A DNA stretch of 64,000 bases from Ulvibacterium marinum (GTDB taxonomy: Bacteria; Bacteroidota; Bacteroidia; Flavobacteriales; Flavobacteriaceae), in NCBI RefSeq assembly GCF_003626755.1, contig NZ_RBCJ01000001.1, forward strand, positions 1,054,001 through 1,118,000, read 5' to 3'. Within the stretch, counting starts at the first letter, position 1, and each line of letters opens with the position of its first letter. Under the pieces are notes generated by a model. That model was not told the origin of the DNA. It did no database searches and was given only the letters and a program-made list of their open reading frames with translations. Both the position numbers and the translations under genes were made by a program. Positions 23,743 to 48,090 of the stretch are shown piece by piece.

Positions 23743-24876
23743 TTAATATCCGAAATCTGCCTTGAGCGCATCAATTTTCTCCAAGGCCATTTCCTTGGTA
23801 AGGAAGTCTATTTCGTCCATGCCGAAGGCCTTTTCAAAGGTGCGTAGGGCCTTTTTAGGCTCACCTAGTTGCTCATAATATTCGCCTTCAAAATAAAAAC
23901 CCAACATGGTATCCGGAAATTCTTTTTTACAAAGATCTGACAGGGATTTTAAGGACTCCAGGTCTTCCTTCTTTCGGGTTCCGGCATAAATGGCCATAAC
24001 GTCATTGAGTTCCACCGATTTACGGAACCCAAAAAGATCTTCTATCATATTGTATTTGTCCTCCAGGTATTGGTAGACCGGTTCATCCGATGTCAATATC
24101 TTTTGTTTGTATTCCTGTGGGCTTATCGGTTTAAATATGTTAAAAGTCCGGTCCCATGCCTTTCCAAGGCCATACGTGGCTATGGAAACTTCATTGGCTT
24201 CTTGATATTGGTCAAAGAAATAGTGGAAGGACTCCTTATCTATGACCTTAAGTGCCCTGTCCATTTGGAGTATCGTTTCATCCGCCTTTCCTTCAACGAT
24301 AAGATGATAGAATATCTTCTGCTTTAGGGCATTCAACCGTTCCGGAACCCTGGTTTCCATTTCAGGGGCCAATGAAGGCGAGATGCTTATATAGGCATTG
24401 AACAGTGAATTTTCCTTGAAAAGCCAATAGTTTTGAAAATTCGCTGTAATATCATAACCCACGATCATTTTGAAAGGAGCAGTATTATAGTTCAAATCCA
24501 AATAGGGAATGATTTCCATACCCAAGAATTCAAAGAACTTTTTCCCCTTTTCCGTTGGAAGTCCGGTATTTTCCTCAAAAGCACAATCTTCCCAACGTAA
24601 GTCGTCCTTACTTTGGTGGATGCCTACAACTATAGATTCCGGCATACCTTGGAAAGTACTGTAGAACTTAGCGGTGGCGACTACTTGATCAAATAGATAA
24701 TCCCCATCCAATACCACAATGAGCGGATATTTTTTTTCTTCCGAAAGGTTTTCTGGAAAATAGTAGGAAACATCCCTTCTTTCCTGGAGTTTAAAGGATT
24801 CAAAAATCTCTTTTGTCACCTGGGCATTGACGCTAAGGCATAAAAGTAGGGTAAGCGTAAGGATTAAACGTTGCAT
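23743..24876 (-). CDS. Esterase-D-like alpha/beta-hydrolase, nucleophile apparently missing
   Basis: This 377-residue protein has a signal peptide (residues 1-19, ending VNAQ), then an alpha/beta-hydrolase domain of the putative esterase family (PLIVVLDGDYLF, SIVVGIHQ), and a helical TPR-like C-terminus (AFGMDE region). The usual nucleophile elbow G-x-S-x-G is replaced by GYDITAN at residues 140-146, with Asp142 where serine is expected. That suggests a non-catalytic or altered activity. It is encoded in the panC-panD-flippase-radA run, exported to the periplasm or surface. No function is proposed. Confidence 0.78.
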   Translation of the reverse strand: MQRLILTLTLLLCLSVNAQVTKEIFESFKLQERRDVSYYFPENLSEEKKYPLIVVLDGDYLFDQVVATAKFYSTFQGMPESIVVGIHQSKDDLRWEDCAFEENTGLPTEKGKKFFEFLGMEIIPYLDLNYNTAPFKMIVGYDITANFQNYWLFKENSLFNAYISISPSLAPEMETRVPERLNALKQKIFYHLIVEGKADETILQMDRALKVIDKESFHYFFDQYQEANEVSIATYGLGKAWDRTFNIFKPISPQEYKQKILTSDEPVYQYLEDKYNMIEDLFGFRKSVELNDVMAIYAGTRKKEDLESLKSLSDLCKKEFPDTMLGFYFEGEYYEQLGEPKKALRTFEKAFGMDEIDFLTKEMALEKIDALKADFGY

Positions 24877-35028: not shown

Positions 35029-36555
<1,527 letters not shown>

Positions 36556-36628
36556 AATAAGTAAGCAGTAGCTGTATGCAGTGTTTAGATACTGCCAACT
36601 GCCGCTGTCAACTGCTAACAGACAAAAG
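36556..36628. repeat. atpD-atpC spacer with repeated GCAGT / ACTGC units
   Basis: The 73-base spacer contains GCAGT at about 36566 and 36580 and then ACTGC at about 36593, 36600 and 36611, so the two halves can fold on each other. Such CAACTGC-type low-complexity spacers recur between genes in some Flavobacteria. It makes an unusually long and structured gap for an atpD-atpC pair. Confidence 0.5.
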
Positions 36629-36907
36629 ATGTATTTAGAAATCGTATCACCTGAAGCTACATTGTTCGCCGGGGAAGTTGTTTCGGTAACCGTCCCAGGC
36701 ATCAACGGGGAATTCCAAATGTTGACGGATCACGCGCCTATCGTTTCATTGTTGCAACAAGGACATGTAAAGGTTGATGGCAATATAAGCATCGATGAGT
36801 CCTATCAAGATAAGTTTACCAAAGATGCCACCGGAAAAACTGTTCTTTCCATTACCAGTGGTACTGTAGAAATGAAGGACAACAAGATTATCGTTTTGGC
36901 GGATTAA
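36629..36907 (+). CDS. atpC: F1Fo ATP synthase subunit epsilon (short form)
   Basis: This 92-residue subunit consists of the N-terminal beta-sandwich only: MYLEIVSPEATLFAGEVVSV, VPGINGEFQML, ITSGTVEMKDNKIIVLAD. The C-terminal two-helix inhibitory domain of the E. coli protein (about 138 residues) is absent, as is usual in this phylum, so classic epsilon inhibition is not expected. I use the ATG at 36629; the upstream in-frame stretch from 36581 lies in the spacer repeat. Confidence 0.93.
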   Translation: MYLEIVSPEATLFAGEVVSVTVPGINGEFQMLTDHAPIVSLLQQGHVKVDGNISIDESYQDKFTKDATGKTVLSITSGTVEMKDNKIIVLAD

Positions 36908-37526: not shown

Positions 37527-37534
37527 TAAATTTG
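37527..37534 (+). promoter_or_regulatory. -7-like element at the bioF start
   Basis: TAAATTTG fits the TAnnTTTG consensus and ends three bases before the bioF ATG at 37538. If used, the bioF mRNA would have almost no leader. No clear -33 element is seen, so this is tentative. Confidence 0.3.
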
Positions 37535-37537
37535 AAT

Positions 37538-38707
37538 ATGGTCAAACTTCCTCTGAAATTAAAGGCGAAACTTTTAGAAAGAAAGGAAGAAAGCTTCATT
37601 AGAAACTTAACGGCACCTTTGGACTTGGTGGATTTTACCTCCAATGACTATTTGGGTTTTGCCGGGGACAGGACGATTTTTTCAAAGTCTTTTCAGCTCC
37701 TTAAAAAAATGGGAGCGGCATCAAATGGTGCTACGGGATCTCGTTTACTTTCCGGTAATCACAAATTGTATGCGGAATTAGAGGAAACCCTGGTAAAATT
37801 TCATGAGGTGTCCTCCGCACTGGTCTTTAGTTCTGGCTATGACGCCAATGTAGGATTTTTTAGCTCGATTCCCCAACGTGGCGATTTTGTTTTTTATGAC
37901 GAACTTATTCATGCCAGTATCCGGGACGGCATTAAAATGGGTAATGCCAAAAGCTATAAGTTCAAGCATAATAATCTGGAGGATTTAAAAAGTAAATGTA
38001 ATTTCAAGCGTCCACAAAGTATTAATGAGCCGCAGATTTATGTCGTTACTGAATCGGTCTTCTCTATGGACGGAGACTCCCCGGATTTGAAGAGGTTTTC
38101 AGAATTTTGTATCCAAAACGGATTTAATCTTGTTATTGATGAGGCACATGCAATAGGTGTTTTTGGAGAAATGGGCAAAGGCAAAGTTGATGAGTTGGGA
38201 CTTCAAAAAGAAATATTTGCCCGCATCATTACTTTCGGTAAGGCTTTAGGTTGTCACGGTGCAGCAGTCTTAGGGAGTAGTGAACTAAAGGACTATTTGG
38301 TAAATTTTGCCCGAAGCTTTATCTATACAACCGCCTTGTCACCACATTCGGTGGCAACGATTATGGAGGCATACAATCATTTGGAATCTTCTAAAGGAGC
38401 TGATGCCAGGCAAAGACTCACCAAGAATATTGCTTATTTTAAGGATATGGTACATATGAAAGGGCTTAATTCTCTATTTATACCGAGCCATTCGGCAATT
38501 CAGTGTTGTATACTACCGGGAAATCATCAAGTGAAGTCAGTTGCCAAAAAAATACAAGATACTGGTTTTGACGTGAGACCCATTTTTTCCCCAACCGTTC
38601 CGAAAGGAAAGGAAAGGCTTCGTTTCTGTTTACATAGTTTCAACACCAGGAAGGAAATTAAGAAGTGTTTGGAAATACTATCCCATAATTTACGAGGTAA
38701 TGGCTGA
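37538..38707 (+). CDS. bioF: 8-amino-7-oxononanoate synthase-like PLP enzyme
   Basis: This 389-residue alpha-oxoamine synthase condenses pimeloyl-thioester and alanine in biotin synthesis; the biotin role is supported by bioD, bioA and bioB nearby. Visible landmarks are DFTSNDYLGF, GATGSRLLSGNHKLYAELE, VIDEAHAIGVFG and the PLP lysine in TFGKALGCHGAAVLGS. I prefer the ATG at 37538 to the TTG two codons earlier. It overlaps the following DUF2007 gene by eight bases, indicating an operon. Confidence 0.92.
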   Translation: MVKLPLKLKAKLLERKEESFIRNLTAPLDLVDFTSNDYLGFAGDRTIFSKSFQLLKKMGAASNGATGSRLLSGNHKLYAELEETLVKFHEVSSALVFSSGYDANVGFFSSIPQRGDFVFYDELIHASIRDGIKMGNAKSYKFKHNNLEDLKSKCNFKRPQSINEPQIYVVTESVFSMDGDSPDLKRFSEFCIQNGFNLVIDEAHAIGVFGEMGKGKVDELGLQKEIFARIITFGKALGCHGAAVLGSSELKDYLVNFARSFIYTTALSPHSVATIMEAYNHLESSKGADARQRLTKNIAYFKDMVHMKGLNSLFIPSHSAIQCCILPGNHQVKSVAKKIQDTGFDVRPIFSPTVPKGKERLRFCLHSFNTRKEIKKCLEILSHNLRGNG

Positions 38708-39080
38708 GAAATTTTACACGTTGGCTTCCTTTGAATTCCCTGCTGATGTTCAAGTATTGAAAGGTAAATTGGAATCGGAGGGTGTCCCTGTTTTTCTAAA
38801 AGATGAAAACACCTTGAATTCCGATCCATTGATAAGCAGTGCCATTGGTGGGGTTAGGGTTCAAGTATACAGTAGGGACAAAGAAAGGGCCAAGGCCATT
38901 TATGATGAAATTCGTTCCTATGCTTTGGATAAATATGGAAATCCTGTTATTTGTCCCAATTGTAAGGCCCAAAAATCGGAGACCTACTATGAAAGCAAAG
39001 GTCTTTTCCACAAACTCTTTCCTTTTTTTGAAAAAAGAAAGTACAAATGCCTAAATTGTGGTATGATTACAAAACCTTAA
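38700..39080 (+). CDS. DUF2007-domain protein with C-terminal zinc ribbon
   Basis: This 126-residue protein has an N-terminal DUF2007 domain at about residues 5-75 (FYTLASFEFPADVQVLKGKL, GGVRVQVYSRDKERA), a family labelled putative signal-transducing protein. The C-terminus is a zinc ribbon with C85, C88, C117 and C120. It overlaps bioF by eight bases and sits two bases before bioD, so it is firmly in the biotin operon. No biotin-related function is known for it; it could be a passenger or a regulator. Confidence 0.85.
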   Translation: MAEKFYTLASFEFPADVQVLKGKLESEGVPVFLKDENTLNSDPLISSAIGGVRVQVYSRDKERAKAIYDEIRSYALDKYGNPVICPNCKAQKSETYYESKGLFHKLFPFFEKRKYKCLNCGMITKP

Positions 39081-39082
39081 GA

Positions 39083-39700
39083 ATGCAGAGAATATTTGTT
39101 ACTGGAATATCTACCGATGTAGGAAAGACTATCGCTTCGGCCATAATTGTGGAGGCCTTAGAGGCAGATTATTGGAAACCGGTTCAGGCAGGGGAATTGG
39201 ATAATACAGATAGCCACAAAATTCATCGACTTATTTCAAATACCAAAAGTGTAATTCATCAAAGCAGTTATGATTTAACGTCTCCTATGAGCCCCCATGC
39301 TGCAGCCGAAATAGATGATATCCGAATTGATAGGCAACATATCGTTGAGCCGGAAACAGATAATCATTTAATTATTGAAGGTGCAGGAGGCTTACTGGTT
39401 CCCTTAAACGAGGAAGATACAGTTTTAGATATCATAATGCCCAATTATAAGGTGGTGGTGGTTTCCCGACATTATTTGGGAAGTATCAACCATTCCCTGT
39501 TGACTATTCGTTGGTTGCAACAAAAGGGATACGAGGTTTCGGTAATTTTTAGCGGGGATGCCAATCCACATACAGAAAACATAATACTTCATAAGACGGG
39601 GGTATCCTTAATCGGCAGAATTGAAGAAGAAACCGATTTTGATAAAGAAACTATTAAAAAGTATGCCGATAAATTCCAACATATCTTGGAATCACTGTAG
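39083..39700 (+). CDS. bioD: Dethiobiotin synthetase
   Basis: This 205-residue ATP-dependent enzyme closes the ureido ring of dethiobiotin from diaminopelargonate and CO2. The start is set at MQRIFVTGIST, the conserved N-terminus; an in-frame upstream reading from 39047 overlaps the previous gene. The P-loop reads GISTDVGKT, slightly off the usual GTDTxVGKT. The motifs KPVQAG and EGAGGLLVPLNE are present. Its last nine bases overlap the end of the opposite-strand GT39 gene. Confidence 0.93.
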   Translation: MQRIFVTGISTDVGKTIASAIIVEALEADYWKPVQAGELDNTDSHKIHRLISNTKSVIHQSSYDLTSPMSPHAAAEIDDIRIDRQHIVEPETDNHLIIEGAGGLLVPLNEEDTVLDIIMPNYKVVVVSRHYLGSINHSLLTIRWLQQKGYEVSVIFSGDANPHTENIILHKTGVSLIGRIEEETDFDKETIKKYADKFQHILESL

Positions 39701-41200
39701 ACGTTTAAGTACTTCCGCTTTGTCAACCGTAGCGAAAATCTCATAATGCTTCTTTAGGTAGGCATCAATATATTCGTTTTCTTCAACTTCCTTTTTGTCG
39801 AACACCAATCTATTTTTCCGTACAACAATAGTCTTAGGTTGTAATTCCTCAAGTATATACTGTAGTTCTTGCAAAGATGAGCTTCTTGGATTGTCGTAAA
39901 AAGGAAATAATTCGTCCCTGCAGATATTGCTGGGATGCGTAGCGGCTTTTGTGGGCGGTTTTACATCCAGTACCCAATAGCCTATGTGATAGCCCAGAAA
40001 AAGAATATTTTGAGTATCCATTTGATTATTGACAATGTATTGAGGTACGGTGAACCCCTCACCATTAAAGAAAGTGCCGCGTTCCATTTTGTTCCTTGCA
40101 ACGGAATAGTACTCCAAATAGCTTTCTAAAGGCAACATCAATGAAAAAAAGAACAAATAGGGTCTATAATCGAATTTTTGAAATACGAGGATCTTGCCCA
40201 CAACCATACTTACCAGAACTATCAGTACTGGATGTAGCTGTATTAAATAGTGACTATTGATTCTTCCACCTTTGATAAAAGAAAGTAGTATGCCTAAAAT
40301 GGCAATAACCAAAATTTGGATTGTTACGGCTCTAAAGTCCAACAGCTTCTTTTTCCAGGAATAGTAGAAAAAGATGCTGATAAGAAGGAATGTAGGTGCC
40401 ATCTTAAGAATGGAATACCGCCGCGCATCCGTGTATTCCAATGGCGCAAGGATAACCGATTTCCACCAAGCTTCCGGGTTGCCTGTAATAATATAGGGCA
40501 ATATGGTGAGGAACACCACCATAAAAATTCCACCGGCAAATAAAAAAGAGAATTGTATTCCCCTGGGATACTCCCTTCTTTTTATATAACTATAAAGAAA
40601 GTATATCCCTAAGAGGAGCACAACATAGGCCATGTTCAATTTGGTCATGATCGTTAGCCCCATAAGGATTCCGGATAGCCCTGCCCAAAATAGTTTTTTC
40701 TGTTTTATAAGTAGGTAGAGTCCCGGCATAAAAAAGGCCATACAAATGTGCTCCGACATTACTCCTTGCAAACTTCCAAAAAGACTTTGTAGGGCAACAC
40801 ACAACATTGCTGCCCAAAAACCCAATTTTTTGGAACTTACCTCTTTCCCTATTTTGTAGGTAAAAAAGGCCGTAATAACCACCAATAGGGTGCCTAAGAA
40901 ACGGATGGCCAAAAAACTCTTTCCAAAAGCATAGATACTACTGGCAAAAAAAAGGTAGGTGATGGGCGGTTTTAAATCCCAAAGTTCCATATAAGGTAAA
41001 TAACCATCTACCCAAGATTGTCCCATAAGAATAAAGGTACTTTCGTCACGATCTATATAGTCCCTAAAGAAAAATGGGAACCGTATAAAAAACGAAGCTG
41101 CGAACAGCAAAATAAAAACAGATTTGTCTTTGAGTTTATGGTATTTAGGAGTAAGAGATGTTATAACTTTGCGCAGCATCCGTTTGGGGTTGATTCCCAT
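39692..41200 (-). CDS. GT39-family (ArnT/PMT-like) membrane glycosyltransferase
   Basis: This protein of about 502 residues has roughly eleven transmembrane helices and the ArnT/dolichol-phosphate-mannosyltransferase pattern. The likely catalytic acidic pair is in the first periplasmic loop (YIDRDESTF), followed by DLKPPITYLFF. A soluble C-terminal region ends the protein. It would transfer a sugar from a lipid carrier on the outer face of the inner membrane. The ATG at 41200 is preferred; a TTG at 41239 would overlap the bioA ATG, and an ATG at 41179 is also possible. It lies antisense between bioD and bioA. Confidence 0.83.
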   Translation of the reverse strand: MGINPKRMLRKVITSLTPKYHKLKDKSVFILLFAASFFIRFPFFFRDYIDRDESTFILMGQSWVDGYLPYMELWDLKPPITYLFFASSIYAFGKSFLAIRFLGTLLVVITAFFTYKIGKEVSSKKLGFWAAMLCVALQSLFGSLQGVMSEHICMAFFMPGLYLLIKQKKLFWAGLSGILMGLTIMTKLNMAYVVLLLGIYFLYSYIKRREYPRGIQFSFLFAGGIFMVVFLTILPYIITGNPEAWWKSVILAPLEYTDARRYSILKMAPTFLLISIFFYYSWKKKLLDFRAVTIQILVIAILGILLSFIKGGRINSHYLIQLHPVLIVLVSMVVGKILVFQKFDYRPYLFFFSLMLPLESYLEYYSVARNKMERGTFFNGEGFTVPQYIVNNQMDTQNILFLGYHIGYWVLDVKPPTKAATHPSNICRDELFPFYDNPRSSSLQELQYILEELQPKTIVVRKNRLVFDKKEVEENEYIDAYLKKHYEIFATVDKAEVLKRLQ

Positions 41201-41238
41201 CACCGCAAGATAGATAAAAAGGCGATTTATCAAATTCA

Positions 41239-42513
41239 ATGACAGCTAAAAATCTCTCCAAAAGAGACCAGAAACACATTTGGCATCCACTGACCCAGCA
41301 CAAGACCCATCCTAATACTTTAGGAATTGTAAGGGCCAAGGGAGCAATTTTGTACGATGAAAATGGCAAGGAATATATTGATGGTATTGCCTCTTGGTAT
41401 ACCTGTATGTATGGGCATTGCAATGACTTTATCCTGGAAAAGGTACAAAAACAGATGTCTCGGTTGGACCAAGTGGTATTTAGTGGTTTTACACATGAGC
41501 CGGCCATAGGATTATCCGAGGAACTGATTAAGATTTTACCGCGGAATCAGGAAAAATTATTCTTTTCCGATAACGGGTCCACAGCTGTTGAAATTGGGAT
41601 AAAAATGGCACTGCAATACCATTTCAACAAAGGGGACAAAAGGAAGGTGCTTTTGGCTTTTGAAGAAGGGTTCCATGGGGATACCTTTGGTGCAATGTCC
41701 GTTTCCGGGCTATCCGTTTACAATGGTCCTTTTGAGGATTTTTTTATTGATGTGGAACGAATTCCGGTGCCTACAAAAGACAATATCGAGCGTATCTTGG
41801 CCTCCCTGGAAATACGGATAGGGAAACAGGATATAGCGGGCTTCATCTATGAACCACTTGTGCAGGGTGCCGCAGCAATGAAAATACATGACGCAGAGGG
41901 GTTAGACCGTATTCTTGAGCTGTTACAGCAGAATGAAGTGTTGACTATTGCAGATGAGGTCATGACAGGATTCGGGAAGACGGGAACCTTTTTTGCATCA
42001 GATCAATTGACCACTCCACCGGATATTATCTGCCTGTCCAAGGCCTTGACCGCTGGATTAATGCCCATGGCCATTACCAGTTGTTCAAGTAAGGTTTATA
42101 GCGCATTTTACAGCAATGAGATAACCAAAGGCTTATTCCATGGCCACACCTATACGGCCAACCCTTTGGCCTGTACTGCGGCTTTGGCCGGAATAGAGCT
42201 ATTATGCTCAGAAGAAATCCAAAATAATATTCAACGTATCATAAAATCACATGAAGATTTTGGCCAACAAATCAAGACGCATCGTCTTGTAGCTTCTATC
42301 CGACAATGCGGTACTATTTTTGCTTTGGATTTAAATGTGCAAACGGAACGCTACGGTAATCTTAGGGACAGACTCTTCCAATATTTTATGGATAAAGGTG
42401 TATTTTTGCGTCCTCTCGGAAACACTATTTACATTTTGGCGCCTTACGTTATTTTGGATGAACAGTTGGAAAAGGTTTATAGTACTATAAAAAGTGCTCT
42501 GGATAGTATTTGA
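41239..42513 (+). CDS. bioA: Adenosylmethionine--8-amino-7-oxononanoate aminotransferase
   Basis: This 424-residue class III PLP aminotransferase forms 7,8-diaminopelargonate using S-adenosylmethionine. The N-terminus KRDQKHIWHPLTQHK with YIDGIASWYTCMYGH is diagnostic for BioA; the PLP lysine is in CLSKALTAGLMPMA and DEVMTGFGKTGTFFA precedes it. The stop codon lies 14 bases before the ATG of the ketoacyl synthase gene, so these two form an operon separate from bioF-bioD. Confidence 0.95.
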   Translation: MTAKNLSKRDQKHIWHPLTQHKTHPNTLGIVRAKGAILYDENGKEYIDGIASWYTCMYGHCNDFILEKVQKQMSRLDQVVFSGFTHEPAIGLSEELIKILPRNQEKLFFSDNGSTAVEIGIKMALQYHFNKGDKRKVLLAFEEGFHGDTFGAMSVSGLSVYNGPFEDFFIDVERIPVPTKDNIERILASLEIRIGKQDIAGFIYEPLVQGAAAMKIHDAEGLDRILELLQQNEVLTIADEVMTGFGKTGTFFASDQLTTPPDIICLSKALTAGLMPMAITSCSSKVYSAFYSNEITKGLFHGHTYTANPLACTAALAGIELLCSEEIQNNIQRIIKSHEDFGQQIKTHRLVASIRQCGTIFALDLNVQTERYGNLRDRLFQYFMDKGVFLRPLGNTIYILAPYVILDEQLEKVYSTIKSALDSI

Positions 42514-42527
42514 ATTCCCTTAAAGCT

Positions 42528-43700
42528 ATGCCAGAACAACAGATTACCATAACTGCAATTTCTTCCATTTCTTCATTGGGAAAATCAACCGACGATGTCT
42601 GGGATAGTTACCGGAAGGAGAAACATCTTTTTGAAAAAAGAAGTTTGGGCAATCATGACGACTGGATGGCTCCACTATCACAAAAAGCAAAGCGCGCCAT
42701 TAATCTCCTAAGAAGTTCCGATGCTAAATACGAAAACCTGGATGATACCGTGCTGTATGCCTTGTATGCTTCTAGACAAGCCATAAAAAAAGCTGGATGG
42801 AAACAAGGAGATGACTTTGGTATTAATATAGGGTCTTCCCGTGGCGCAACGACACTTTTTGAAAAGTATCATGAGAACTTTAGGGAAACCGGCAAAGTTT
42901 CCCCACTTTCCTCACCAACAACAACTTTGGGTAATATTTCCTCTTGGATAGCACACGATCTAAAAACGAAGGGCCCCGAAATTTCACATTCCATTACATG
43001 TTCCACCGCCTTACATGCAGTGTTGAACGGGATGGCCTGGATCAATAGTGGTATGGCCGATAGGTTTTTGGTAGGAGGCAGTGAAGCTCCCCTCACAGCA
43101 TTTACCTTGGCCCAAATGAAGGCCTTAAAAATATATGCCAATGGCCAAGCAACCACAGGGCATACTTTTTACCCTTGTAGAGCTTTGGATATGGAGAAAA
43201 GGAAAAATTCAATGGTATTGGGCGAAGGAGCCTCTATTGCTTGTTTGGAAAAAGGGGTTCGTCATAATTCATTGGCAGTTATTGAAGGCATCGGATATGC
43301 TACGGAACCTTTGGAGCATTATGTTTCCATTTCAAGTGATGCTCATTGTTTTCAGCGATCTATGGAAATGGCTTTAAATGATTTAGCCCCAGAATACGTT
43401 GACGTAATCGTGATGCATACACCTGGAACAATTAAGGGAGATTTGTCGGAATATAAAGCTATTAAGAAGGTTTTTTGTAACAAAACACCTTTTTTAACTA
43501 CCAATAAATGGATAGTAGGCCACACTTTTGGAGCTTCAGGCATGTTGAGTATCGAAATGGCCATATTAATGTTGCAACATCAAGAAGTTATAAGAGTACC
43601 CTTCGCCGAAGATTTCAAGATACCTTCAAAGATTCGAAAAGTAATGGTTAATTCTGTCGGATTTGGAGGAAATGCAGTAAGTATTTTACTTTCAATTTGA
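42528..43700 (+). CDS. Beta-ketoacyl synthase-like protein in the biotin locus
   Basis: This 390-residue thiolase-fold protein has the full KAS catalytic triad: C158 in SITCSTALHA, H297 in MHTPGTIKGD, and H332 in NKWIVGHTFGASG. The second motif is diverged from the usual HGTGT, so it is not a housekeeping FabF. Its position directly after bioA suggests a role in making the pimeloyl chain, perhaps replacing or supplementing a BioC/BioH route, but this is inference. The ATG at 42528 is preferred to a TTG at 42510 that would overlap bioA. Confidence 0.83.
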   Translation: MPEQQITITAISSISSLGKSTDDVWDSYRKEKHLFEKRSLGNHDDWMAPLSQKAKRAINLLRSSDAKYENLDDTVLYALYASRQAIKKAGWKQGDDFGINIGSSRGATTLFEKYHENFRETGKVSPLSSPTTTLGNISSWIAHDLKTKGPEISHSITCSTALHAVLNGMAWINSGMADRFLVGGSEAPLTAFTLAQMKALKIYANGQATTGHTFYPCRALDMEKRKNSMVLGEGASIACLEKGVRHNSLAVIEGIGYATEPLEHYVSISSDAHCFQRSMEMALNDLAPEYVDVIVMHTPGTIKGDLSEYKAIKKVFCNKTPFLTTNKWIVGHTFGASGMLSIEMAILMLQHQEVIRVPFAEDFKIPSKIRKVMVNSVGFGGNAVSILLSI

Positions 43701-43763: not shown

Positions 43764-44345
43764 ATGGAAGAATGGTTTACAGCTCTGACTTTATTTGAAA
43801 AAATTTATTGGGTCGTTGCCCTCATCGCTTCGGCAATTTTAACTATCCTCCTTATTCTTACTTTGTTGGGCGGTGATACTGAAGATATGGATGCTGGCGA
43901 TGTGGATGCCGATGTAGAAGGTGATTATGGTATTGGGTTCCAATTCTTATCTTTTAAAAATTTGATGGGCTTTTTGACCATTTTCGGTTGGTCTGGAATC
44001 GCTTGTCTTGATGAAGGTTTGTCTAAAGGGCTTACTGTTTTAATTTCGGTAATCTGCGGATTATTGATGATGCTTGCCATGGCCTCACTCTTTTATTATC
44101 TGGGAAAACTACAGAGCAGCGGAACCTTGAGGTTGAAAAGTGCTTTAAACCAAGTTGGTGAAGTATATCTGACCATCGGTGCCGGTCGCTCCAAAATTGG
44201 CAAGGTAAGTATTACCGTTCAGGGTACTTTACGAGAATTGGAGGCACTTACCGATGAGGAAAAAGATCTCGTTTTAGGTAACGTCGTACGTGTTAAGGCT
44301 ATCACGGAAAACGGTTTGCTAATTGTTGAACTATTAAATAAATAA
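43764..44345 (+). CDS. NfeD-like membrane protein
   Basis: This 193-residue protein has about three to four transmembrane helices in the first 120 residues (ASAILTILLILTLLGG, GLTVLISVICGLLMMLAMASLF), with an acidic loop DTEDMDAGDVDADVEGD between helices, and a C-terminal OB-like domain (VGEVYLTIGAGRSKIGKVS). NfeD-type proteins are encoded next to flotillins in many bacteria and are thought to work with them in membrane organisation. Here the flotillin gene begins four bases downstream. Confidence 0.8.
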   Translation: MEEWFTALTLFEKIYWVVALIASAILTILLILTLLGGDTEDMDAGDVDADVEGDYGIGFQFLSFKNLMGFLTIFGWSGIACLDEGLSKGLTVLISVICGLLMMLAMASLFYYLGKLQSSGTLRLKSALNQVGEVYLTIGAGRSKIGKVSITVQGTLRELEALTDEEKDLVLGNVVRVKAITENGLLIVELLNK

Positions 44346-44349
44346 CCAT

Positions 44350-45792
44350 ATGCTTCTATTACCGTTACAATTGGGAGGTAGTGCCTCTTTATTAGCTATT
44401 GGCTTTGCCATCCTGTTCTTTTTTATAATTATCATCTCCTTCATCCGAAGGTATAAACGCTGTCCGTCTGATCGTATCCTTGTCGTTTACGGAAAAGTGG
44501 GCGGCGGCAGTTCGGCCAAGTGTATTCATGGTGGTGCCGCATTTATCTGGCCGGTTATCCAGGACTATCAGTTTTTGGATTTAACTCCGATTTCGATCGA
44601 AGTGAGTTTGGTAAATGCATTGAGTAAACAGAATATTCGTGTTAATGTACCCTCACGTTTTACCATTGGTATTTCTACCGAGCCTGGAATTATGCAGAAT
44701 GCCGCCGAACGTCTTTTGGGCCTTGGCCAAAATGAAATTCAGGAATTGGCCCAGGAAATTATCTTTGGACAATTGCGTTTGGTCGTAGCTTCAATGGATA
44801 TTGAAGAGATTAACTCGGATAGAGATAAATTCTTGACCAACATTTCACAAAGTGTAGAGTCGGAATTAAAGAAAGTCGGGCTTAAATTAATTAATGTAAA
44901 TATTACCGACATTGTTGATGAATCCGGTTATATTGAAGCATTGGGTAAAGAAGCTGCGGCCCATGCCATAAATGCAGCTCGTAAGTCGGTAGCGGAAAAG
45001 AATAGGGATGGATCCATTGGTGAAGCCAATGCCCTGCAAGATGAGCGTACTCAGGTGGCCGCTGCAAATGCCCAGGCCGTTGAAGGAGAGAATATAGCTA
45101 AAATAGATGTGGCCAATTCCGATTCGTTACGACGGCAGCGTGAGGCAGAAGCCGAGCGCACGGCCATAGCCGCTGAAAAGGTACAGTCGGCCAAGGCATT
45201 GGAAGAATCTTATGCGGCTGAAAAGGATGCAGAAATAGCAAGGGCCGAGCGCGAACGCTCTTCACAGATTGCAGATATCGTCGTACCTGCTGAAATTGAT
45301 AAAAAGAAAGTCGAGATTGATGCTGAGGCCGAAGCGGAGAAGATACGTCGGCAAGCCCGTGGAGAAGCGGATGCTATTTTGTTTAAGGCACAGGCAGAAG
45401 CTCAAGGGCTTTTTGAAGTATTGACCAAACAAGCACAAGGTTTGGATGAAATAGTAAAGGCCGCTGGTAACGATCCAAAGGATGCAGTACTCTTATTAAT
45501 AGCGGATAAACTTCCAGAATTGGTCAAAACCCAGGCCGAGGCGATAAAGAATATTAAAATCGATAAGGTTACTGTATGGGACTCGGGGGCCAAGACTACC
45601 GATGGTAAAGGCTCAACAGCTAATTTCATTTCTGGTATGTACAAGTCCGTACCTCCATTGCAAGAGATGTTTAATATGGCTGGTATGCAGCTTCCCGAAT
45701 ATTTAAAGGGAAAAGCCGTGGATAACGAAGAAGTTTCCCCTGAAACAGAGAAGAATACAAAGCCAAAAAAAGACCCCAAGGATACGGAATAA
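44350..45792 (+). CDS. Flotillin-family SPFH protein
   Basis: This 480-residue protein has an N-terminal membrane helix at about residues 13-33, an SPFH domain at about 45-200 (VNVPSRFTIGISTEPGIMQN), and a long coiled coil rich in Ala and Glu at about 210-350 (AEAERTAIAAEKVQSA), the flotillin signature. Flotillins scaffold functional membrane microdomains. The NfeD-like gene directly upstream is the usual partner. The pair sits between the ketoacyl synthase and bioB without obvious link to biotin. Confidence 0.9.
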   Translation: MLLLPLQLGGSASLLAIGFAILFFFIIIISFIRRYKRCPSDRILVVYGKVGGGSSAKCIHGGAAFIWPVIQDYQFLDLTPISIEVSLVNALSKQNIRVNVPSRFTIGISTEPGIMQNAAERLLGLGQNEIQELAQEIIFGQLRLVVASMDIEEINSDRDKFLTNISQSVESELKKVGLKLINVNITDIVDESGYIEALGKEAAAHAINAARKSVAEKNRDGSIGEANALQDERTQVAAANAQAVEGENIAKIDVANSDSLRRQREAEAERTAIAAEKVQSAKALEESYAAEKDAEIARAERERSSQIADIVVPAEIDKKKVEIDAEAEAEKIRRQARGEADAILFKAQAEAQGLFEVLTKQAQGLDEIVKAAGNDPKDAVLLLIADKLPELVKTQAEAIKNIKIDKVTVWDSGAKTTDGKGSTANFISGMYKSVPPLQEMFNMAGMQLPEYLKGKAVDNEEVSPETEKNTKPKKDPKDTE

Positions 45793-46056: not shown

Positions 46057-47151
46057 ATGAACAATACTAGACATGACTGGACCAAGGAAGAAATTCTAAA
46101 TATATACAACAAACCACTAATGGAATTGCTGTATGAAGCGGCAACCGTACATAGAAAACATCACGACCCCAATACAGTGCAAGTTTCCACTTTATTGTCG
46201 ATTAAAACGGGCGGATGTTCTGAGGATTGTGGGTATTGTCCACAAGCGGCTAGATACCATACGGATATTGAGAAGAATGATCTTATGTCGGTTTCCCATG
46301 TTAAAGCACAGGCATTGCGGGCAAAGGAATCTGGAAGCTCAAGGGTTTGCATGGGAGCCGCGTGGCGAAATGTAAAGGACGGTCCTGAATTTGATCAAGT
46401 GCTGGAAATGGTGCGTACCATCAACAAATTGGATATGGAAGTCTGCTGTACTTTGGGGATGCTCACGGAAAATCAAGCCAAGCGCTTAGCTGAAGCCGGA
46501 CTTTATGCCTACAACCATAATTTAGATACTTCGGAAGATTACTATAAAGACGTTATCTCAACACGTGCCTTTGAAGACCGTTTAGAGACTATAGATAATG
46601 TTAGAAAAAGTAATGTCACGGTTTGTAGTGGAGGTATTATTGGTATGGGGGAAAAATTGGAGGATCGTGCGGGGATGCTCGTTGCATTGTCTTCTTTGAA
46701 CCCTCAGCCGGAATCCGTACCGATTAATACACTGGTAGCTGTGGAAGGGACTCCTATGGAGGATATTGAACCAGTGGCCATTTGGGATATGGTACGTATG
46801 GTGGCCACCACGCGAATTGTAATGCCCGAGACTCAAGTGCGACTTTCGGCAGGCCGTACCCAAATGAGTAGGGAAGGGCAGGCACTTTGTTTCTTTGCCG
46901 GGGCCAATTCAATTTTTGCCGGGGATAAACTCTTGACCACACCAAACCCGGATGTAAACGAGGATATGGAAATGTTCGCCTTGCTTGGACTCAACAGTCA
47001 GAAACCCTTCGAAAAGCATGATCAACCAGAGACCGTTGAGGCATCGGATTCAGCACTACAGGGCTTGGGCGAAAAGCCTAAATGGACACGTCCCGGACAT
47101 ACTATTGAACGCAATGAAGCTGCAAAAGCGAAGTCGAAAATTGTCCAGTAG
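46057..47151 (+). CDS. bioB: Biotin synthase
   Basis: This 364-residue radical SAM enzyme inserts sulfur into dethiobiotin. The [4Fe-4S] cysteines C54, C58 and C61 are in GCSEDCGYCPQ. The motifs for the SAM site and second cluster are present: RVCMGAAWRN, YNHNLDTSEDYY, VCSGGIIGMGE and VRLSAGR. Length is slightly beyond the usual because of a polar C-terminal extension (TRPGHTIERNEAAKAK). It closes the biotin pathway but is separated from bioA by about 3.5 kb. Confidence 0.96.
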   Translation: MNNTRHDWTKEEILNIYNKPLMELLYEAATVHRKHHDPNTVQVSTLLSIKTGGCSEDCGYCPQAARYHTDIEKNDLMSVSHVKAQALRAKESGSSRVCMGAAWRNVKDGPEFDQVLEMVRTINKLDMEVCCTLGMLTENQAKRLAEAGLYAYNHNLDTSEDYYKDVISTRAFEDRLETIDNVRKSNVTVCSGGIIGMGEKLEDRAGMLVALSSLNPQPESVPINTLVAVEGTPMEDIEPVAIWDMVRMVATTRIVMPETQVRLSAGRTQMSREGQALCFFAGANSIFAGDKLLTTPNPDVNEDMEMFALLGLNSQKPFEKHDQPETVEASDSALQGLGEKPKWTRPGHTIERNEAAKAKSKIVQ

Positions 47152-47229: not shown

Positions 47230-48090
47230 TTGGAATTAAAGGACATCCCCAGAGCTAAAACTCTTACCAAAAAAGAGTTTATGGAAACCTATTTTAAACC
47301 CCAAAAACCGGTTGTCATTGAGGAATGTACACTTGGCTGGCCCGCGTATTCCAAATGGAACCTGGAGTATATGCGGAAAGTTGCAAGGAATAAGATAGTT
47401 CCTTTATATGATGACAGGCCCGTGCATCACAAAGACGGATTTAACGAACCGCATGCACGGATGAATATGTCGGATTATATCGACTTATTGAAAACAACAC
47501 CTACGAAGTACCGCATTTTTCTTTGGAATATCCTAAAGGAGATTCCTGAACTTCAAGATGACTTCGATTACCCCGATTTAGGTCTTCGGTTCATGAAAGG
47601 TCTGCCCATGCTTTTTTTTGGTGGAAAGGATTCCCATACCTTTATGCATTATGATATAGATTTGGCCAATATCTTCCATTTTCACTTTGAAGGTCAAAAG
47701 GACTGTATCCTTTTTTCAAGGAAGGAAACCAAGTATCTTTATAAAATTCCACATTCCTTGATTACGCACGAAAGTATTGATTTTTCCAATCCAGATTTTG
47801 AAAAATGGCCGGCCTTGAAACATGCAACGGGTTATAGAACAAGTTTAAACCATGGCGAAGTGCTTTATATGCCTGAGGGATACTGGCATTACATGAAATA
47901 TCTTACCCCGGGATTTTCTATGAGCCTAAGGGCCATGGCGCGTAACCCCAGGAATGTTACCCGGGCCATATACAACATCCTTATAATGCGGCATTATGAT
48001 GGCCTAATGCGCAAGCTTAAAGGTCAAAAGTGGATAGATTGGAAGAATGAAGAAGCCATTCATGAGACTAACAAGCGTATTCGGGCATGA
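47230..48090 (+). CDS. Cupin/JmjC-like Fe(II)-dependent oxygenase
   Basis: This 286-residue protein resembles FIH-like JmjC/cupin_8 hydroxylases. The likely iron ligands are H140 and D142 (FMHYDIDLANIF) and H220 (PEGYWHYM). In this group, Fe(II) and 2-oxoglutarate are used to hydroxylate an amino-acid side chain or ribosomal protein. The start seems to be TTG at 47230: a stop codon lies three codons upstream in frame and the next ATG would remove conserved sequence. It follows bioB by about 80 bases and is convergent with recX. Substrate unknown. Confidence 0.8.
   Translation: MELKDIPRAKTLTKKEFMETYFKPQKPVVIEECTLGWPAYSKWNLEYMRKVARNKIVPLYDDRPVHHKDGFNEPHARMNMSDYIDLLKTTPTKYRIFLWNILKEIPELQDDFDYPDLGLRFMKGLPMLFFGGKDSHTFMHYDIDLANIFHFHFEGQKDCILFSRKETKYLYKIPHSLITHESIDFSNPDFEKWPALKHATGYRTSLNHGEVLYMPEGYWHYMKYLTPGFSMSLRAMARNPRNVTRAIYNILIMRHYDGLMRKLKGQKWIDWKNEEAIHETNKRIRA

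Follow-up and report, generated by a model that had tools for sequence, protein, structure and literature searches.

A FabF-fold ketoacyl synthase encoded with the biotin genes of Flavobacteriales as a candidate enzyme for the pimeloyl stage

Introduction

Biotin (vitamin B7) synthesis varies in the stage that provides the pimeloyl chain, and this stage is known only in part. A survey of gut genomes recorded 74 in which all the late genes are present but no pimeloyl source is known, and its authors proposed uncharacterised enzymes for this gap (PMC6593275). Marine flavobacteria, in turn, have been rated as biotin producers from four late genes (PMC9561691). In Ulvibacterium marinum, a gene encoding a ketoacyl synthase (here termed KAS) lies among the biotin genes, and the question raised by this locus is whether KAS provides the pimeloyl chain. 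We address it through the occurrence, genomic linkage and residue conservation of KAS across the order Flavobacteriales and its phylum. The term window is used here for the whole stretch of DNA that was analysed (64,000 nucleotides of contig NZ_RBCJ01000001.1).

Results

A ketoacyl synthase gene in the biotin locus

The neighbourhood of KAS presents the gene order bioF-bioD-bioA-KAS-bioB and comprises the following features.

37532-38707, + strand: bioF-like gene, 8-amino-7-oxononanoate synthase (TIGR00858, 332 bits)
39047-39700, + strand: bioD, dethiobiotin synthase (TIGR00347, 112 bits; cut-off 83)
41239-42513, + strand: bioA, 7,8-diaminopelargonate aminotransferase (TIGR00508, 530 bits; cut-off 405)
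42528-43700, + strand: KAS, FabF-fold ketoacyl synthase (PF00109/PF02801, AlphaFold model, co-occurrence with bioA); proposed role, dedicated condensing enzyme of the pimeloyl stage
46057-47151, + strand: bioB, biotin synthase (TIGR00433, 404 bits; cut-off 225)
47230-48090, + strand: Cupin_8 protein 3' of bioB (PF13621, 104 bits), possibly an accessory or rival factor

TIGR00858 is the best match of the bioF-like protein among its family models, yet the score falls below the cut-off of 426. The KAS gene extends from an ATG at 42528 to a stop codon ending at 43700, within an enclosing ORF (42510-43700) that opens with TTG, and begins 14 bp after the bioA stop codon. Its product of 390 aa scores 75 bits against PF00109 and 60 bits against PF02801. 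The original prediction, made from sequence alone, had placed a ketoacyl synthase directly after bioA at 42528-43700, and this placement was confirmed. Its description of a two-gene unit with bioA held only in part, the setting being larger, with bioF, bioD and bioB also near. The claim that the window lacks bioC was upheld (no match at E <= 1), while the corresponding claim for bioH lacks a search with a BioH model. No BioG or BioW domains were identified in the 47 ORFs scanned out of the 53 window ORFs of at least 130 aa, and a PF00756 esterase is encoded in the window at 23746-24876, unlinked.

The source genome (5.9 Mb, 14 contigs) is rated 99.98% complete. The check proposed with the original prediction, a genome-wide search, was run for bioC and bioW and revealed no credible BioC (best match 59 bits against a cut-off of 185) and no BioW (PF03744; no match at E <= 0.01). 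A bioC-bioH pair elsewhere had been named as the refuting observation, and the BioC half of such a pair was not found in this genome. BioE likewise gave no match at E <= 0.001.

Co-occurrence with bioA and exclusion of other early modules in the order

The occurrence of KAS was analysed in 118 genomes of the order, sampled with a requested completeness of 90%, using a threshold of E <= 1e-30 for KAS and the curated cut-off for bioA. Under these settings, bioA was present in 39 genomes and KAS in 26, all of them among the 39 bearing bioA. No KAS was detected in the bioA-less genomes (0/79), four of which present a weaker bioA-like match (271-282 bits) under the cut-off. The association between both genes yields a Fisher value of 9e-17, which ignores relatedness and is only descriptive; the genomes in all the counts reported here are not independent samples. 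A chance neighbourhood of KAS and the biotin genes was rejected on the basis of this co-occurrence. In five genera (g2, g3, g17, g20 and g32), members with bioA carry KAS and members without bioA do not, a pattern suggestive of repeated joint loss.

Among the 39 bioA genomes, 26 carry KAS, 12 BioE and one BioG-BioC, with no genome of the order carrying two of these early modules and no bioA genome devoid of all three. The 13 bioA genomes lacking KAS correspond to 12 members of a single genus (g14) and one genome of another family (f8). All 12 g14 genomes encode BioE, and in the seven of their loci that were fetched the genes for BioL, BioE, bioF, bioD, bioB and bioA were found together (7/7). 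The g14 protein matches no Pfam model and was named BioE because its gene lies beside that of a GntR-aminotransferase (MocR-type) regulator and because it matches the metal ligands of EmBioE: in the one g14 protein examined, the six published ligands (PMC12915131) are all present at a constant offset of 2. The f8 genome presents the gene order bioB-bioA-bioF-bioG-bioC. Its BioG matches PF04301 with 124 bits, and its BioC reaches 158 bits across nearly the full model, yet remains below the curated cut-off. Given that this real BioC scores under it, the BioC cut-off alone is not decisive.

No credible BioC was detected in the KAS genomes of the order, where the best match reached 76 bits (G076); the background observed in BioE-bearing and bioA-less genomes extends up to 87 bits. 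Searches in the same 26 genomes returned no BioE match at E <= 0.001 and no BioW (PF03744; 0/26), with Bacillus subtilis and Methanocaldococcus jannaschii as positive controls for the latter.

Survey of the phylum

The survey was extended to 296 genomes of the phylum, scoring the top 5-10 first-look candidates in each genome and setting the BioC threshold (E <= 1e-26) just above the background seen in the order. Among the 141 genomes with bioA over its cut-off, KAS was identified in 24, BioE in 10 and BioC in 85, with zero overlap, and none of the 24 KAS genomes of this set had a BioC match at E <= 1e-26. BioC was matched in 98 genomes overall, comprising these 85 and 13 without bioA. The best BioC scores in the 85 genomes ranged from 126 to 239 bits, covering most of the model in all but G375 and G257. 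Two genomes with a weak KAS match (G269 and G319; 107 bits, 29% identity) were excluded from the KAS count because the matching proteins have Ile at position 105, a residue analysed below, and because their genomes encode BioC. As in the order, Fisher tests on the phylum set ignore relatedness and are descriptive only.

The remaining 22 of the 141 bioA genomes were negative for KAS, BioE and BioC under the thresholds applied, which probably indicates a further unknown pimeloyl route or a diverged enzyme; examples are G124, G199, G226 and G343 (loci L124, L127, L129 and L134). Together with the 13 genomes that have BioC and no bioA, they imply that the gene sets are not fully understood. No alternative route was seen in three unknown ORFs near the bio genes of route-less genomes, which encode a pantoate hydroxymethyltransferase, a Nudix/NrtR-type regulator and a short-chain dehydrogenase. 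In the genome of G247, where KAS, BioE and BioC are all absent at the thresholds used, a FabG-like short-chain dehydrogenase is encoded directly 5' of bioF-bioD-bioA (locus L131, 3211-4074). No FabH-like ORF above 60 bits was present in the fetched KAS and bioA loci.

These surveys bear on a first alternative, in which KAS would act as the biotin-specific elongation enzyme in a methyl-ester route whose unlinked methyltransferase and esterase have diverged beyond recognition as BioC and as BioH or BioG. In its favour, generic methyltransferases reach the 76 bits noted above for KAS genomes. Against it, the BioC background is equal or higher in genomes with BioE or without bioA, and the 85 bioA genomes of the phylum counted as BioC-bearing all reach 126 bits or more. 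Furthermore, a methyl ester would not be expected, by inference, to call for the invariant pocket arginine of KAS described below. We regard this explanation as unlikely.

Linkage of KAS to biotin genes

The 26 KAS genomes of the order are represented by the window and 25 fetched loci. In the window and in 23 of the fetched loci, and hence in 24 genomes, a same-strand bio gene was found within 500 bp of KAS, with bioA, bioB or bioD as the nearest one. As exceptions, KAS is 2.4 kb from bioA in G091, and in G003 no bio gene occurs within 18 kb of it. Where bioA is located elsewhere, in seven genomes of the order, KAS lies just 5' of bioB (five), 3' of bioD (one) or alone (G003).

A second set of named loci consisted of the best 80 of the 434 found, which are hence close relatives. 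These belong mostly to the Flavobacteriaceae or genera thereof (Zobellia, Maribacter, Flavobacterium, Arenibacter and others), the rest being labelled only as Bacteroidetes (five), as Flavobacteriales (one) and as a Sphingobacterium MAG (one). A bio gene was located within 3 kb of KAS in 79 of the 80 loci. In 58 of them, the nearest one was an upstream bioA at no more than 500 bp; in nine, bioA was again upstream, at 0.5-3 kb, and in 12 the nearest one was bioB, located downstream within 500 bp. In the one remaining locus (L220), KAS lies close to a FabF gene, without bio neighbours. KAS was also located in four further families: near bioA in three, overlapping its end (G158), about 0.4 kb after it (G266) or about 1.3 kb 3' of it (G152), and directly after bioF in the fourth (G276).

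Several other genes were observed in these neighbourhoods. The gap between bioD and bioA (window 39695-41239, - strand) encodes a PMT-family glycosyltransferase-like membrane protein with homologues in 24 of the 80 named loci, and the gap between KAS and bioB (window 43764-45792) encodes a small protein that matches no Pfam model, together with an SPFH/Band 7 protein whose homologues were found in 27 of the 80. Genes for ATP synthase beta (and epsilon) lie near bioF in the window (35047-36907) and in 13 fetched loci, an odd neighbourhood that recurs in several families.

Of the named loci, 65 contain bioB, and in 47 of these the Cupin_8 gene lies next to it. The Cupin_8 family includes iron-dependent oxygenases, and it is conceivable that this protein belongs to the biotin pathway as a biotin-linked oxygenase. 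This leads to a second alternative, in which pimeloyl-ACP would arise when an oxygenase cleaves a particular acyl-ACP provided by KAS, the candidates for the oxygenase being the Cupin_8 protein or an unlinked P450 or diiron enzyme. The BioE and BioI routes work in this way (PMC12915131), and the alternative is retained mainly because of the recurrence of the Cupin_8 gene beside bioB. Several observations argue against it. BioE is absent from every KAS genome in the order and phylum searches, and the Cupin_8 gene was found in only five of the 15 fetched KAS loci of the order that hold bioB, plus the window, although it could lie elsewhere in the others. Moreover, long acyl-ACPs are already made by the general FabF. 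On balance, this alternative is also improbable.

Family membership, fold and residue signature of KAS

The AlphaFold model of KAS, a monomer without ligand based on a 22-row alignment, presents a mean pLDDT of 88.5 and a pTM of 0.91. Confidence is moderate across residues 101-130 (block pLDDT of 72, 77 and 60) and falls below 50 in residues 128-134. The model aligns with FabF and FabB structures over 372-382 residues (Z 51-53, rmsd 2.0-2.3, 21-25% identity), and the ketoacyl-synthase fold spans the whole length of the protein, as expected of a KAS I/II (FabF-type) condensing enzyme. Against the FabF equivalog model (TIGR03150), KAS scores 147.5 bits, short of the cut-off of 493.75; it matches 18 NCBIfam models in all, each below its own cut-off. 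In a midpoint-rooted tree of 67 sequences, 30 KAS sequences cluster together to the exclusion of the 37 FabF-type paralogues; the support for this cluster reads 0.81 from one side of the root and 1.0 from the other. No relative was recovered when viral contigs were scanned with the KAS alignment.

Residue conservation was assessed in 115 of the 116 KAS sequences collected, which count at least one genome twice (G052 = L204); L115 (G376) was omitted, no ORF above 250 aa having been taken for it. The positions of interest map to the window as follows.

42840-42842, + strand: Arg105 codon (CGT) of KAS, in the place of FabF Ile108 (Ile109 counting Met1)
42999-43001, + strand: Cys158 codon, active site of KAS (115/115)
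43416-43430, + strand: HxPGT motif, His297-Thr301 of KAS, replacing HGTST
43506-43523, + strand: Lys327 to His332 of KAS, catalytic Lys and second His (115/115 each)

Cys158, His297 (codon 43416-43418), Lys327 and His332 (codon 43521-43523) are invariant in the KAS homologues (115/115), fulfilling the criterion of a conserved triad plus lysine. The original prediction had stated that a C158, H297 and H332 triad is kept and that the second motif has diverged from FabF, and both statements held: the codons are as predicted, and the motif reads HTPGT in the window KAS and HxPGT in its relatives, against HGTST in FabF.

These results bear on the possibility that KAS has no activity of its own and serves the fatty-acid enzymes as a scaffold or chain-length factor. 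The fold is common to chain-length factors, but these proteins are not known to have the cysteine, and KAS retains Cys158, both histidines and Lys327 throughout. A second FabF-like ORF is also absent from the fetched loci L070-L109 and L123-L142, and a single one was found in the 80 named loci (L220). The identification of KAS as an inactive chain-length factor was rejected because the cysteine is retained, and the broader alternative is considered highly unlikely.

The residues expected to line the acyl pocket set KAS apart from its paralogues. Arg105 is present in 115/115 KAS homologues and in 0/37 paralogues, which have Ile (18), Val (10), Gln (5) or, once each, Ser, Lys, Asp and Thr at this site. 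Position 197 is Met in 108, Ile in five and Phe in two of the 115 KAS homologues, against Phe in 37/37 paralogues. Pro299-Gly300 is similarly found in 115/115 and 0/37 sequences, the paralogues having Thr at 299 (37/37) and Ser or Ala at 300. Ser129 and Thr132 are also invariant in the KAS homologues, but the alignment of the paralogues is uncertain in that loop. In a profile alignment to FabF sequences from the PDB, Arg105 falls on the isoleucine of GSGIGG, a site occupied by Phe in 4ls6 (I108F mutant). KAS hence has an acyl-pocket signature of its own, with an invariant arginine.

Four further KAS-like genes were identified in the source genome at E <= 0.001, the best with 73 bits. Three FabF-type KAS genes lie close together on its contig C6 (133-149 kb) and could form part of a pigment or polyene cluster; in one of the three, Lys occupies the Arg105 position.

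A further alternative is that KAS is an ordinary second enzyme of fatty-acid synthesis that merely shares the locus. The FabF fold, the intact triad and the lack of bio neighbours at L220 and G003 are compatible with this explanation. It is opposed by the absence of KAS from 79/79 bioA-less genomes and from 13/13 genomes with BioE or BioC-BioG, by its score against the FabF model (147 bits, cut-off 494) and by an invariant pocket signature not found in any of the 37 paralogues, and we consider it very improbable. Orthology to FabF was rejected on the same score and pocket residues, and orthology to BioZ on the triad, which is Cys-His-His instead of Cys-His-Asn.

Discussion

KAS is encoded in the biotin locus, occurs in the order only with bioA and is never found with the other early routes searched. 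Its membership of the biotin pathway can be held with high confidence, on genomic evidence only and in the absence of phenotype or activity data. The proposal in the original prediction of a part for the enzyme in building or choosing the pimeloyl chain is supported within these same limits. The more specific reading that we favour, with a probability of roughly 0.58, is that KAS is an active, dedicated condensing enzyme for pimeloyl-ACP that, in biotin-producing flavobacteria without BioC-BioG, BioE and BioW, operates through a free-carboxylate mechanism; its activity, primer and chemistry are all inferred. To the extent that KAS replaces BioC-BioG or BioE, it should yield a pimeloyl thioester for BioF.

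The closest precedent is BioZ, a KAS III enzyme that condenses glutaryl-CoA with malonyl-ACP and replaces BioC-BioH (PMC8024396, PMC7645780). Residues S84, R147 and S287 of BioZ were proposed by their authors to neutralise the free carboxylate (PMC8024396, PMC7645780). By analogy, the pocket arginine of KAS suggests a BioZ-like chemistry reached within the FabF family, and our main reading includes the notion that KAS works like BioZ but derives from FabF-type enzymes. In the mechanism envisaged, Cys158 would accept a short acyl chain whose omega-carboxylate stays free, either from malonyl-ACP (two rounds) or from a glutaryl thioester (one round). Arg105, at the pocket wall, would neutralise the carboxylate of the primer, so that the methyl ester made by BioC would not be needed. 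Decarboxylative condensation with malonyl-ACP would then generate a 3-oxo-dicarboxylyl-ACP, and housekeeping reductases and dehydratase would convert it into (glutaryl- and then) pimeloyl-ACP, the predicted substrate of BioF, with BioF, BioA, BioD and BioB completing biotin.

The identity of the primer is inferred from pocket residues only, and the choice between malonyl and glutaryl is unresolved. FabF-type enzymes use acyl-ACP primers, which makes malonyl-ACP or glutaryl-ACP the natural candidates, glutaryl-CoA being also possible. A bolder reading, which we put forward more tentatively and would not favour over its negation, is that KAS itself loads malonyl-ACP, with Arg105 shielding the carboxylate, and performs two rounds of elongation. 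If so, three malonyl units would supply the C7 chain of biotin, with neither a disguised carboxylate nor a step of oxidative cleavage, in a further methyl-ester-free route to pimeloyl-ACP.

Several observations count against the main reading. The R147A variant of BioZ is partly active, and S84A and S287A are not (PMC8024396), a result that weakens an arginine-based interpretation. A BioZ has been recorded in a Bacteroides strain (PMC7645780), KAS has no bio neighbours in G003 and L220, and the Cupin_8 gene recurs beside bioB. No description of a FabF-family enzyme in a pimeloyl role was found in the open-access literature searched, which leaves subscription papers uncovered. With these reservations, KAS constitutes a specific and testable candidate for the pimeloyl gap in one large group of bacteria, and the data outline three early modules (KAS, BioE and BioC-BioG) that replace one another inside a single order.

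Comparison with known systems

The BioC-BioG/BioH systems are expected to generate the same product as KAS, pimeloyl-ACP, but KAS genomes lack a credible BioC. The BioE-BioL system of Elizabethkingia and Chryseobacterium resembles KAS in occupying the early slot beside bioF, bioD, bioB and bioA, within the same order; BioE, however, is described as a diiron oxygenase acting by cleavage of long acyl chains (PMC12915131) and was not found in genomes with KAS. With FabF and FabB, KAS shares the fold and the Cys-His-His triad plus lysine. It differs from FabF in presenting Arg at Ile108, Met at Phe202 and HxPGT for HGTST, and in being found, within the order, only with bioA.

BioZ, described mainly in alpha-proteobacteria, is a FabH-type enzyme with a Cys-His-Asn triad and a CoA primer (PMC7645780), whereas KAS is of the FabF type, with Cys-His-His. 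Both have an arginine in the pocket, forming part of a polar pocket end in BioZ, although the spatial correspondence of these arginines is untested. Like BioZ, a condensing enzyme of the biotin cluster that bypasses BioC-BioH, KAS is encoded with biotin genes in genomes without BioC, meeting the genomic criterion for such a system, and the same bypass is proposed for it here.
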